A stretch of DNA of 64,000 bases from an uncultured Poribacteria bacterium (lineage in GTDB: Bacteria > Poribacteria > WGA-4E > WGA-3G), in assembly GCA_951828515.1 (NCBI GenBank), contig OX639992.1:2954217-3018216 (forward strand), given 5' to 3'. Under the pieces are notes generated by a model. It had not been told where the DNA came from. It ran no database searches and saw only the letters and a program-made list of their open reading frames with translations. The position numbers and the translations under genes are program-made. The stretch's first letter is position 1. The number at the start of each line of letters is the position of its first letter. Positions 30,038-34,536 of this stretch are shown here, in pieces.

Positions 30038-31129
30038 ATGATTTTACGTTCACAGAAGATAGAACTCACTCCAAATAATAAGCAATCCACACAAATGTCT
30101 CAACACGCGGGCTATGCCCGTGTTGCCTTCAACTTTGGTTTGTCGTCGTTCAAAGTCGGTTTAGACCAAGACGAATGGCGAAGCCATGTTGACATAAAGC
30201 GTGAATTCAACGCAGTCAAGTATGATAAGTTTGACTGGTGTAAAGACCTTTCACAGAATGCGTCGAAGAATGCTATCCACAATCTTGGGGACGCAGTAAC
30301 CCGCTGGAAAAAAGGACAAAACAAGTTCCCTGTCTATAAGAACCGATCTGGTAAATGTTCTTACCAAGCAGACAATGGCGAAGGCACTGTAAAAGTCCAT
30401 AAAAAGCGTATTGAACTCCCTAAAATCGGGTGGATACGCATGCGTGAAGAACTGCGATATTCTGGTGAAATTACCAAAGTTGTCATTAGTAAGCATAATG
30501 ACACATGGTATGCTTCTATCACTATGAGACGGCTGGATAGCAGCAACTATAAATACCAACCGCCCCTGTTTAACGAGAATCCACCGATAGGTATTGACGT
30601 AGGTATCAATACACTTGCGACATGCTCTAATGGTGATACCTACGGCAATCCACGACCTCTCAAGCGATATGAACGCAAGTTAGCTCGTGAAAACCGGAAG
30701 TTCGCACGCAAGCAGAAAGGCAGTCAGAACGGGTATAAGCAGAAAAAACGCTTATCTGCTGTCCACGCACGTATTGCGAATATCCGTGAGGACGCTCACC
30801 ACCAAGCGACAATACGGATTGTTCGTAAAGCAAGTGCTATTGGTATTGAGACGCTGAAGATTACCAACATGCTAAAGAATCGGAAACTTGCCAAAGCATT
30901 GTCCGATTCAGCGTTAGGCGGTTTTCTGACAAAACTCAAATACAAAGCAGATAGGCGTGGCATACCGATAGACGAAGCAGATAGGTTCTTTGCGAGTTCC
31001 AAAACATGTAGCAACTGCGGACACAAGAAAGCAGATTTGACGCTCTCTGATAGACAATACCACTGCTCCGAATGTGGACTGGATATTGACAGAGACCTAA
31101 ACGCTGCGAAAAACCTCTGTCCCACTTGA
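30038..31129 (+). CDS. tnpB: TnpB RNA-guided nuclease (IS200/IS605 or IS1341 type), intact
   Basis: A 363-residue TnpB of a different subgroup from the one at 26582. RuvC residues are D187 (in IGIDVGINTLA), E271 (in IGIETLKI) and D351/D353 (in IDRDLNAA). Zinc ligands are C324, C327, C343 and C346. It appears full length with no frameshift. No tnpA lies nearby. The shared leader and promoter with the other tnpB, despite divergent proteins, suggests the 5' region is a conserved control module. The gap to the next gene (31130-31335) probably holds the guide RNA scaffold. Confidence 0.92.
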   Translation: MILRSQKIELTPNNKQSTQMSQHAGYARVAFNFGLSSFKVGLDQDEWRSHVDIKREFNAVKYDKFDWCKDLSQNASKNAIHNLGDAVTRWKKGQNKFPVYKNRSGKCSYQADNGEGTVKVHKKRIELPKIGWIRMREELRYSGEITKVVISKHNDTWYASITMRRLDSSNYKYQPPLFNENPPIGIDVGINTLATCSNGDTYGNPRPLKRYERKLARENRKFARKQKGSQNGYKQKKRLSAVHARIANIREDAHHQATIRIVRKASAIGIETLKITNMLKNRKLAKALSDSALGGFLTKLKYKADRRGIPIDEADRFFASSKTCSNCGHKKADLTLSDRQYHCSECGLDIDRDLNAAKNLCPT

Positions 31130-31335: not shown

Positions 31336-32436
31336 TTACTGTATTTTCGCCTTTAATTCAGCGATGTCCTTGTCAAGTGATGCTTCTTCGGCATAGCTCG
31401 AAAATTCACGCTCCAATTTTGCATCCTGATACGCGACATCCACTTCAGCCGCCGTTTTCGCCAAGGTGGCTGCCTCAGTCGCGTCCTGATCCATCTTCGT
31501 AAGCGTTTCAAACGCTTTACTGCCCTGTATCTCGTTCAACATCTCGCGGAGATGTGCTTCGGCATCAACGTTCCTGTGTTTCGCAACGACGGCTGTCTTT
31601 TTCCCCTCCGCTTCCATCATTTTTTGCTGAAGATGCTCAAGGAGATCACTGAGGTCCCGGACGATTTGTTTCTGATCTCCCCACTGCGTTTTGTATTGAT
31701 CCGCTAACCGTCGGTATTCGTTTCGTTTTTCCAAATCTTCGCGTGCCAAATCCTCGCGTCCGGCTTTAAGGGTAATGAGTGCGCGCGCTTGCCACTGTTC
31801 TGCTTGGGCAACCGCTCCTTCATAAGCGTCTTGAAACTGTTTTTCAACCCCAATAGAGGCAGCAACCTTCTCTCGTGCCGCTGAAAGCCGGTTTTTCATC
31901 TCAACGATGACGCTCTCTAAAACACTCTCCGGGTCTTCAGTTTCAACCTCAGTCTGTTCCGATTCCGGCTCATATTGCACAACGACTGTCTCCGCGAACT
32001 TATCTCCAAGCCGTTGCTGATTTTTCCCAAGGAACCAGAGTAAATCAAAGGGTTGAAAGATACCCGCGAATCGGCGAACGAAAGCATCTTTGAAATTACA
32101 CGGTTTACCGTCTTTCAAACGGACTACTTGTAGGGACAATAACTTTTTACCTATTCCCTGACCCTTCCTGAAGCCGTCGATAAAAAATAGACCGAATATC
32201 CACAAGACAGCAGTAAACAAAGAAGCAAAGATACTGACGCCAACAATGCCAGCCATCAATTTCCCAAACATATTGAAGGATGCGTCTTCGAGAAACAGAA
32301 TCGCTACAACCGATAAAAGAAGTCCGAAAACGGATTGGACGGCACCTAAAACCGCAATATCTATAAAGAGCGCGTATAACCGTGCCATTCGGGATGCCAG
32401 TTTAAATTTTTTCCCTGCTATTTCAATAAACTTCAT
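31336..32436 (-). CDS. RDD membrane domain fused to PspA/IM30-like coiled coil (copy 2)
   Basis: A 366-residue fusion. Residues 1-150 form an RDD domain: FKLASRMARLYALFIDIAVLG, three or so hydrophobic segments, and GIGKKLLSLQVVRLKDG before RRFAGIFQPFDLL. Residues about 175-365 form an uninterrupted charged coiled coil with the PspA/Vipp1 pattern ALITLKAGREDLAREDLEKR and HRNVDAEAHLREM. PspA proteins are ESCRT-III-like membrane-remodelling and stress proteins and normally lack membrane spans. The ATG at 32436 has AGGA upstream. It lies 48 bases downstream of its paralogue on the same strand. Confidence 0.8.
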   Translation of the reverse strand: MKFIEIAGKKFKLASRMARLYALFIDIAVLGAVQSVFGLLLSVVAILFLEDASFNMFGKLMAGIVGVSIFASLFTAVLWIFGLFFIDGFRKGQGIGKKLLSLQVVRLKDGKPCNFKDAFVRRFAGIFQPFDLLWFLGKNQQRLGDKFAETVVVQYEPESEQTEVETEDPESVLESVIVEMKNRLSAAREKVAASIGVEKQFQDAYEGAVAQAEQWQARALITLKAGREDLAREDLEKRNEYRRLADQYKTQWGDQKQIVRDLSDLLEHLQQKMMEAEGKKTAVVAKHRNVDAEAHLREMLNEIQGSKAFETLTKMDQDATEAATLAKTAAEVDVAYQDAKLEREFSSYAEEASLDKDIAELKAKIQ

Positions 32437-32484
32437 CTTCAAATCCTAAAAATCTTTTTGTGTTTGTACCGCGCATTCGATGAA

Positions 32485-33660
32485 CTATCGCTTCTGTAAT
32501 TTCGTCTTTAATTCAGCGATGTCCTTGTCAAGTGATGCCTCTTCAGCATAACTCGAAAATTCACGCGCTAATTTCATATCCTGATATGGGACATCCATTT
32601 CAGCCGCCGCTTTCGCCAAAGTGGCGGCTTCAGTCGCATCTTGATCCATCTGCACAAATGTTTCAAGGGCTTTACTGTTCTGTATCTCTTTCAGCATCTC
32701 GCGAAGGTGTACTTCAGCATTAACGTTCCTGTGTTTCGCGACGACGGCGGCTTTCTCTCCTTCCGCCTCCATCATTTTCTGCTGAAAATGCTCAAGGAGA
32801 TCATTGAGATTCCGGACTATCTGTTTCTGATCTTCCCATTGGTTTTTATATTGATCCGCTAACCGTCGATATTCGTTTCGTTTTTCCAAATCTTCACGAG
32901 CTAAATCTTCACGTCCTGCTTCGAGGGAGATAATAGCGCGTTCTTGCCATCGCTCCGCTAGGGAAACAGCATTTTCATAAGCATCCTGAAACTGTTTCTC
33001 AACGCCGATAGAGGCATTAACCTTCTCGCCTGCTTCCGCAAGCCGGTCTTTCATTTCAACGATGACACTCTCTAAAACCCGCTCTGGGTCTTCAGTTTCA
33101 ACCTCAATTTGTTCCCGTTCTGGTTCATATTTCACAACTACTGTTTCTGCCAACTTATCTCCCATTCGCTGCCGATTTTTTCCAAGCGTCCAGAGAAAAT
33201 CCAATGGTTGAAACACACCTGTGAGTCGGCGAATAAAGGAATCTTTAAAAGTACACGGTTTGCCATCTTTTAGTCGGAGCACCTGTAGTGATAGCAATTT
33301 TTTGCCAAGTCCTTGCCCATTTTTGAAGCCGTCCATGAGGAACATGCCTGCTATCCACAAGGCGGTGCCACTCTGAGCTAAAGTCTCGGGATTCTTATGC
33401 CCCCACGGTCCGAACAGGAAAACTAAGAGCAATTGGGCGACAACCAAGACATTTCTTGGCAGTTTCGTTTTAGGTCCTAATATCCACAGTAATGCACTGA
33501 GCAATCCAATCTGGACAAAACCGGGACTCACAGCTGCGAGAAGAAGGAACAAAGCGAGTAGGATACTCGCTAAGAGCATGCCATCGATGAAAGACGCAAA
33601 TAAGCGCGCGAATCGAGATCCTAATCTGAACTTTTTACCCGTAATTTCAACAAATTCCAT
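32485..33660 (-). CDS. RDD membrane domain fused to PspA/IM30-like coiled coil (copy 1)
   Basis: A 391-residue paralogue of the next gene, longer in the membrane domain by one extra hydrophobic segment (about residues 55-90). The RDD signature FRLGSRFARLFASFIDGMLL and GLGKKLLSLQVLRLKDG are present, followed by RRLTGVFQPLDFL. The C-terminal 200 residues are the PspA-like coiled coil, nearly identical in places to the second copy (AGREDLAREDLEKRNEYR). Very similar C-terminal halves and more divergent membrane halves suggest duplication followed by conversion or selection on the coiled coil. The start has AAAGGA upstream. Confidence 0.8.
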   Translation of the reverse strand: MEFVEITGKKFRLGSRFARLFASFIDGMLLASILLALFLLLAAVSPGFVQIGLLSALLWILGPKTKLPRNVLVVAQLLLVFLFGPWGHKNPETLAQSGTALWIAGMFLMDGFKNGQGLGKKLLSLQVLRLKDGKPCTFKDSFIRRLTGVFQPLDFLWTLGKNRQRMGDKLAETVVVKYEPEREQIEVETEDPERVLESVIVEMKDRLAEAGEKVNASIGVEKQFQDAYENAVSLAERWQERAIISLEAGREDLAREDLEKRNEYRRLADQYKNQWEDQKQIVRNLNDLLEHFQQKMMEAEGEKAAVVAKHRNVNAEVHLREMLKEIQNSKALETFVQMDQDATEAATLAKAAAEMDVPYQDMKLAREFSSYAEEASLDKDIAELKTKLQKR

Positions 33661-33872
33661 CCTGAAAGTCCTTTACGCTTTCTACCGGAACGCGTGTTAC
33701 ATTGAAAGGGACAAACTCACAGTGCTTCGCGCTGAAGCGTGGATCTCGATTGAACACCGGCTTTGTAAATCCCGCCGCGTTCTGTACATGCTTGTTCTGT
33801 ACATACTTATATGGAGTCAGCACATACGAAAAAGGATAGTAAACCTGGGCATACAAAGCAAAGTTAACTGAT

Positions 33873-34478
33873 TTATGCTTGCTGCTTCACCATACTTGCG
33901 AGAATACCGAGAATCTTGTCACACTGTGCAATTGTGTAAACTGCCATGTCAATGTGCAGTTTCTGTCCCTCCAATTTAAGGAAGAGCCAATCTGTTCCGG
34001 AGGTAGTCGTGCCATAAACGTATGGAATGCTATTTTCCCTTTCAGCATTAAAGCGTTGCGCAGCGATCATCTCAGCAACGCATTGGCCCAACCCGAGCTT
34101 CACATCGGCATTTTTTGCTTCTACGAGGGCAATGACCGGTGCCTCTACGAAAAATTGCTCCGGCGACAAACTTATCAAAAAGTCACACACCCCGGTTAAG
34201 TCATTTTCTGCATCAACGTTGAAATCAACACCTGAAAAGAGACTGATGCGGCGATTGAAGTGCTCGCGGAGTTCAAATAAGACATCGGTAATAATTAGTT
34301 CCGATCGGGCTTTTTCTGTACCGATGGCAACCGCTAAAGGCACTTTTTTTCGCAACGCCGCCGTGAAATGTGAACTCACCGTTATGGGTTCTATTTCCGA
34401 GAAGATGTCTATAGATTCAATCCTTTCCAATTTAAACGCTGTTCCGACGGATTCTAAGGTAAAATTACTGTAAGCCAT
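33873..34478 (-). CDS. PD-(D/E)XK nuclease-fold protein, unknown role
   Basis: A 201-residue protein with the nuclease-fold pattern: E60 in an N-terminal helix, D99 (in GVCDFLI), then E120-A-K122 (in LVEAKNAD), and a helix with GLGQCVAEMIAAQRFN. This arrangement is seen in widespread stand-alone proteins near mobile elements, annotated as hypothetical or restriction-like. No DNA-recognition domain is present. It stands alone upstream of the RDD-PspA pair on the same strand, separated by about 210 bases. DNA cleavage is plausible but not shown. Confidence 0.65.
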   Translation of the reverse strand: MAYSNFTLESVGTAFKLERIESIDIFSEIEPITVSSHFTAALRKKVPLAVAIGTEKARSELIITDVLFELREHFNRRISLFSGVDFNVDAENDLTGVCDFLISLSPEQFFVEAPVIALVEAKNADVKLGLGQCVAEMIAAQRFNAERENSIPYVYGTTTSGTDWLFLKLEGQKLHIDMAVYTIAQCDKILGILASMVKQQA

Positions 34479-34536
34479 TTGATAGACCTCGTGAATGTGA
34501 TAGAGGTGATACCCGAGCCCTATGTTCTAAAAAAAA

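Follow-up and report, generated by a model that had tools for sequence, protein, structure and literature searches.

Tandem RDD-PspA fusion genes in a Poribacteria family join a predicted membrane domain to PspA at the place of helix alpha0

Can a bacterial ESCRT-III-like protein work from a fixed membrane anchor in place of its amphipathic helix alpha0? The role of alpha0 in these proteins is an active question, and it is raised by a gene pair in a stretch of 64,000 nucleotides (the window) from an uncultured member of the Poribacteria, a phylum known mainly from marine sponges. The open reading frame list of the window contains two adjoining, co-directional genes on the minus strand, each encoding an N-terminal RDD domain and a C-terminal PspA/IM30 domain. 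Their features, in window coordinates, are as follows.

31336..32436, minus strand: P0001, RDD-PspA fusion of class C, downstream gene, 366 aa (Pfam, AF2); RDD 1-153 with two transmembrane (TM) helices at 16-49 and 57-88, linker 154-165, PspA alpha1-alpha5 from 166
32437..32484, minus strand: intergenic gap of 48 bases, probably within one transcript
32485..33660, minus strand: P0002, RDD-PspA fusion of class A, upstream gene, 391 aa (Pfam, prediction); RDD 1-176 with four predicted membrane helices at 16-43, 48-61, 69-87 and 91-111, PspA alpha1-alpha5 from about 188
33661..33789, minus strand: conserved leader upstream of the class A gene, with a putative promoter

For P0001, the open reading frame list gives a TTG start at 32442, whereas the ATG at 32436 aligns better with the N-termini of relatives. 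P0002 and P0001 probably share one transcript, because close or overlapping gene spacing recurs in relatives. The leader is conserved with one relative locus, L058 (97%), and with another, L038 (84%), and likely holds the promoter, but no consensus promoter stands out within it. The array locus is conserved and is flanked by genes for an oxidoreductase and a sulfatase, one at each end. The segment 29820-31316, lying between the array and the latter gene, carries an IS605-type OrfB/TnpB gene (30038-31129); as this segment is missing at the matching place in both L058 and L038, it is an insertion. Just upstream of the array is a 201-aa open reading frame without a Pfam match (33873-34478), lying in a segment (33790-34535) that L058 and L038 also lack.

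Both proteins matched the RDD profile (PF06271) at 48.5 and 41.2 bits against a cut-off of 24.1, with the match spanning the whole profile (2-136 of 137), and the PspA_IM30 profile (PF04012) at 73.4 and 70.2 bits against a cut-off of 33.9. An earlier note, made from the letters of this DNA, had read each gene as joining RDD to a PspA-like part, and these scores bear it out: both profiles are matched above their curated cut-offs, and the coiled coil scores above background for PspA/IM30. Sequence matches to solved structures at E<0.01 were Vipp1/PspA chains only, and the best 17 Foldseek matches to the model were all Vipp1/PspA. Using VIA-align, the fusion hairpin superposed on E. coli PspA 19-142 at 2.3 A over 121 residues, and BAR, F-BAR and rubrerythrin chains gave similar Z, as expected for long helices. 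Because these unrelated chains score alike, the assignment to PspA rests on the sequence matches, the structural match alone not being decisive. A generic coiled coil was rejected on the PF04012 scores, the restriction of sequence matches to Vipp1/PspA and the Foldseek result. Among 102 distinct intact fusions from 53 loci, with up to four copies per array, the RDD residues R19 and D145 are kept in every copy, D26 in 101 and R16 in 100. By profile, the fusions belong both to the PF04012 domain family and to the RDD family. They are nevertheless not to be filed as PspA proper, since they miss the equivalog cut-off of NCBIfam TIGR02977 (66.6 and 64.2 bits against 242.95) and have no alpha0.

The PspA profile match in the fusions begins at position 20 of 220, and alignment to Vipp1 begins at Vipp1 residue 20-21. 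Since alpha0 of Vipp1 comprises residues 1-22 (PMC8281802), only alpha0 is missing from the PspA part of the fusions. The description of this part as full-length PspA therefore holds for alpha1-alpha5, all present, and fails for alpha0. On sequence comparison, PspA proteins of sister families read ...MSVFSRISTVFKANVNDALTKAEDPEKVLNQ... at the junction, whereas P0001 reads ...AETVVVQYEPESEQTEVETEDPESVLES...; the EDPE motif is kept and everything before it is RDD. This argues that alpha0 was replaced by the membrane domain and not merely preceded by it, in line with the original proposal that an integral membrane domain stands in for the amphipathic helix. Judged from these alignments, RDD is joined exactly at the usual boundary of alpha0 and alpha1. 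When 397 genomes of other phyla were surveyed with PF04012, the listed matches started at positions 1-5, except for the one family member included, which started at 20.

We built an AF2 model of P0001 as a single chain from 40 family sequences. The model has two long membrane helices (TM1 and TM2, as listed above), short RDD strands at 3-6, 9-13, 102-106 and 150-154, with both ends of the RDD on one side, and PspA helices at 169-224, 228-286, 291-338 and 343-365, which match alpha1, alpha2/3, alpha4 and alpha5. Confidence was moderate, with mean pLDDT values of 71.1 (P0001) and 68.9 and pTM values of 0.37 and 0.32, and was weakest in alpha4-alpha5. For P0002, four membrane helices were predicted. 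Both proteins carry positive charges on the N-terminal side and after the hairpin, and P0002 also has them in its middle loop; together with the even number of TM helices, these positive-inside loops would place the PspA part in the cytosol. The RDD anchor is thus predicted to be integral to the membrane. Across 33 aligned copies, the hairpin-tip residues E228, D229, A231, D234, R238 and N239 and the alpha5 residues L361-K362 are invariant. In addition, 56 positions are conserved both in the fusions and in the alpha0-bearing PspA of sister families, and these cluster at the tip (DLAR..L, RNE) and in alpha5 (DLA.LK.K). These results show that the fusions retain the alpha1-alpha5 core, including the hairpin tip and alpha5, the regions of polymer contact in PspA/Vipp1.

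Our phylum sample comprised 84 genomes, 58 of them from the window's own Poribacteria family. The fusion was present in 55 of these 58, as two to four tandem copies, the other three giving no match at the threshold used. Outside the family, the PspA part alone matched within this sample, in stand-alone genes; sister families carry separate alpha0-bearing PspA and RDD genes, and at none of their loci examined were RDD and PspA genes unfused neighbours. In the tree, all 59 fused PspA parts formed one clade (SH-aLRT 100) on a long branch, which fits a single fusion event. When the canonical PspA of a sister family was used as the query, every close match in the fusion family was a fusion starting after alpha0, and the only alpha0-bearing matches were a divergent paralogue of about 227 residues. 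As all the close matches are fusions, canonical PspA appears to have been replaced by the fusion in this family, rather than supplemented.

The earlier note had proposed looking for the same fusion in other phyla. With the fusion profile, the matches listed from 291 genomes of one phylum and from 389 genomes of a second were PspA-only. None of 72,556 plasmids carried an RDD-PspA fusion, and a scan of public genomes, which reaches close relatives only, returned the fusion from Poribacteria only. In longer arrays, the third and last fusion genes repeatedly have between them a gene for a protein of about 100-111 aa that matches nothing in Pfam (L046 5113-5448 and 10 other loci); it is missing from the window. 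In the same phylum, proteins of 458 and 507 aa (L069 2058-3434 and L070 1934-3457) have a C-terminal RDD resembling that of the fusions and paired-cysteine, zinc-ribbon-like N-termini.

A separate psp operon, also raised at the outset, did not emerge: PspC gave no match in the window's genome, control genomes being positive, and the other PspA genes of the genome adjoin ABC-transporter and AAA ATPase genes. No known psp partner gene was found at the fusion locus. The genome's divergent alpha0-bearing PspA (L075 3152-4587; G000:C1 near 1,775,000) overlaps an ABC-transporter ATPase gene, which is followed by a gene for a 546-aa membrane protein, and similar alpha0-bearing PspA genes of 220-250 aa occur across the family. 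At a second place (L076 4139-6892; G000:C1 near 5,710,156), a weak PspA-like protein scoring 31.9 bits, below the cut-off, is followed by an AAA ATPase-domain gene, a pairing reminiscent of ESCRT-III and its ATPase. DUF2170 (YjfI-like) was rejected as a partner, giving only weak matches below the cut-off in three relatives outside the family.

Divergence between the copies is concentrated in one region. In the window pair, the PspA parts are 82% identical and the cytosolic RDD parts 75%, whereas residues 21-85, the TM hairpin, are 23% identical. Over 66 within-array pairs, mean identity was 69% in the first 20 residues, 25% in the TM hairpin, 68% in the cytosolic RDD and 70-71% in PspA. The initial impression that the coiled coils are nearly alike is confirmed by these values; its counterpart, that the membrane parts diverge, applies to the TM hairpin and not to the cytosolic RDD part, which stays alike (68-75%). 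In the RDD tree, copies fall into classes by array position, whereas in the PspA tree the sorting is less clean and a few copies change places, a disagreement that hints at gene conversion. As a check on concerted evolution, we compared four-fold sites in the PspA part, where identity between the window paralogues (43/62) was similar to that between orthologues (53/75 and 41/62). The PspA half may plausibly have undergone gene conversion. Frame changes separate RDD from PspA in one copy each at L065 5977-7058 and L039 5030-6354, the latter in the first copy, which implies that single copies decay in some genomes.

We consider it fairly probable that the fusions are permanently membrane-tethered, ESCRT-III-like proteins of the PspA/Vipp1 type that form a coat and have replaced ordinary PspA. 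The TM hairpin of RDD, with two helices in class C and four in class A, would hold the protein in the inner membrane with PspA in the cytosol; PspA hairpins would polymerise laterally at the membrane, and the grip of the polymer would pass to the bilayer via the RDD anchors, not by reversible insertion of alpha0. Because the RDD anchor would supply the link that alpha0 normally gives, the fusion would always be at the membrane and polymerise there. It may thus serve, under envelope stress, as a constitutive coat that stabilises the membrane or as a curved scaffold, and not as a soluble protein recruited on demand. With no soluble form left, PspA would also lose its usual switch between the soluble and the membrane-bound state. 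Previous work has shown that PspA lacking alpha0 assembles into the same rods as before yet fails to tubulate membrane (PMC12358876), so such a core can polymerise and needs another link to the membrane. Furthermore, the alpha1-3 hairpin of IM30, a Vipp1 homologue, itself binds anionic membranes (PMC12636044). Against a coat, alpha0 lines the lumen of the rod or ring and forms Interface 2 (PMC8281802), and exchanging a 20-residue helix for a bulky RDD might get in the way of rod or ring packing. The moderate model confidence and the lack of a known psp partner gene at the fusion locus also weigh against it.

Since the polymer surfaces are common to the paralogues and their membrane helices differ, the paralogues could co-assemble, as the earlier note had suggested for this pair, in one coat with different membrane partners or environments. 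That they form a mixed, membrane-integrated ESCRT-III-like polymer, in which the ratio of anchor types sets the geometry and the choice of membrane or partner, is a suggestion we make tentatively and with more doubt than confidence.

The roles of the two halves could also be reversed, an arrangement we think improbable: RDD would be the active part, an ion antiporter or a regulator of a membrane protease, and PspA merely a cytosolic oligomerisation module that clusters it. Retention of the RDD Arg and Asp in nearly all of the 102 copies is what an active RDD would predict, and there are functional precedents, one RDD protein having been reported as a Na+(Li+,K+)/H+ antiporter (PMC5996927) and the RDD protein SppI of the sigma-W-regulated sppA operon of B. 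subtilis as an inhibitor of the SppA protease (PMC7568657). However, paralogue TM hairpins that are 25% identical and range from two to four helices are not expected of a conserved transport path; the conserved part that the copies share comprises the polymer-contact residues of PspA, and the fusion appears to have replaced ordinary PspA.

A more remote alternative is that the fusion serves the regulation of PspA as a membrane receptor built into the protein, replacing partners of the PspB/PspC type and signalling stress with no coat. The lack of PspC in the genome would suit such a receptor, and membrane partners of PspA are common elsewhere (PMC11237479). By contrast, the conserved neighbours included no recognised transcription factor or kinase, and the whole core including alpha5 is kept, which is more than a docking stub would need. 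Finally, an assembly or annotation artefact or a decaying pseudogene can be dismissed almost entirely, because the few broken copies (the frame change in L065 and the interrupted first copy in L039) are set against 102 distinct, strongly conserved intact fusions, which come from many independent assemblies, single-contig chromosomes among them.

The natural swap of alpha0 for a TM domain across a whole family could allow a direct test of the role of alpha0. It can be asked whether an ESCRT-III-like coat with a fixed anchor works, and whether it bends the membrane or only stabilises it. The tandem arrays offer, for this, a natural set of anchors on a near-constant polymer core.

The fusions resemble PspA/Vipp1 (IM30; PF04012) in the alpha1-alpha5 core, the hairpin tip and alpha5, being about 30% identical to Vipp1 along the aligned hairpin, but have an integral membrane RDD domain where PspA/Vipp1 have alpha0. 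With RDD proteins such as B. subtilis SppI/YteJ and the H. andaensis RDD protein they have in common the full profile, the Arg and Asp residues and the membrane hairpin; unlike these, they carry a C-terminal PspA domain and a hairpin that varies strongly between paralogues. Another ESCRT-III-like protein, eukaryotic CHMP7, is likewise anchored at a chosen membrane by its N-terminal domain. Its anchor is a peripheral ESCRT-II-like domain and not a set of TM helices. Our literature search found no relevant paper treating RDD and PspA together, and the main text of a 2024 survey of PspA architectures, which describes PspA repeats, PspA-NlpC/P60, PspA-PspAA and an actinobacterial Snf7-RND transporter fusion, makes no mention of RDD (PMC11237479). 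The Snf7-RND fusion described there is a membrane precedent, in which an ESCRT-III-like domain is joined to a membrane transporter. Compared with the fusions set out in that text, the one described here differs in that its added domain substitutes for alpha0 and that the architecture is fixed throughout the family.
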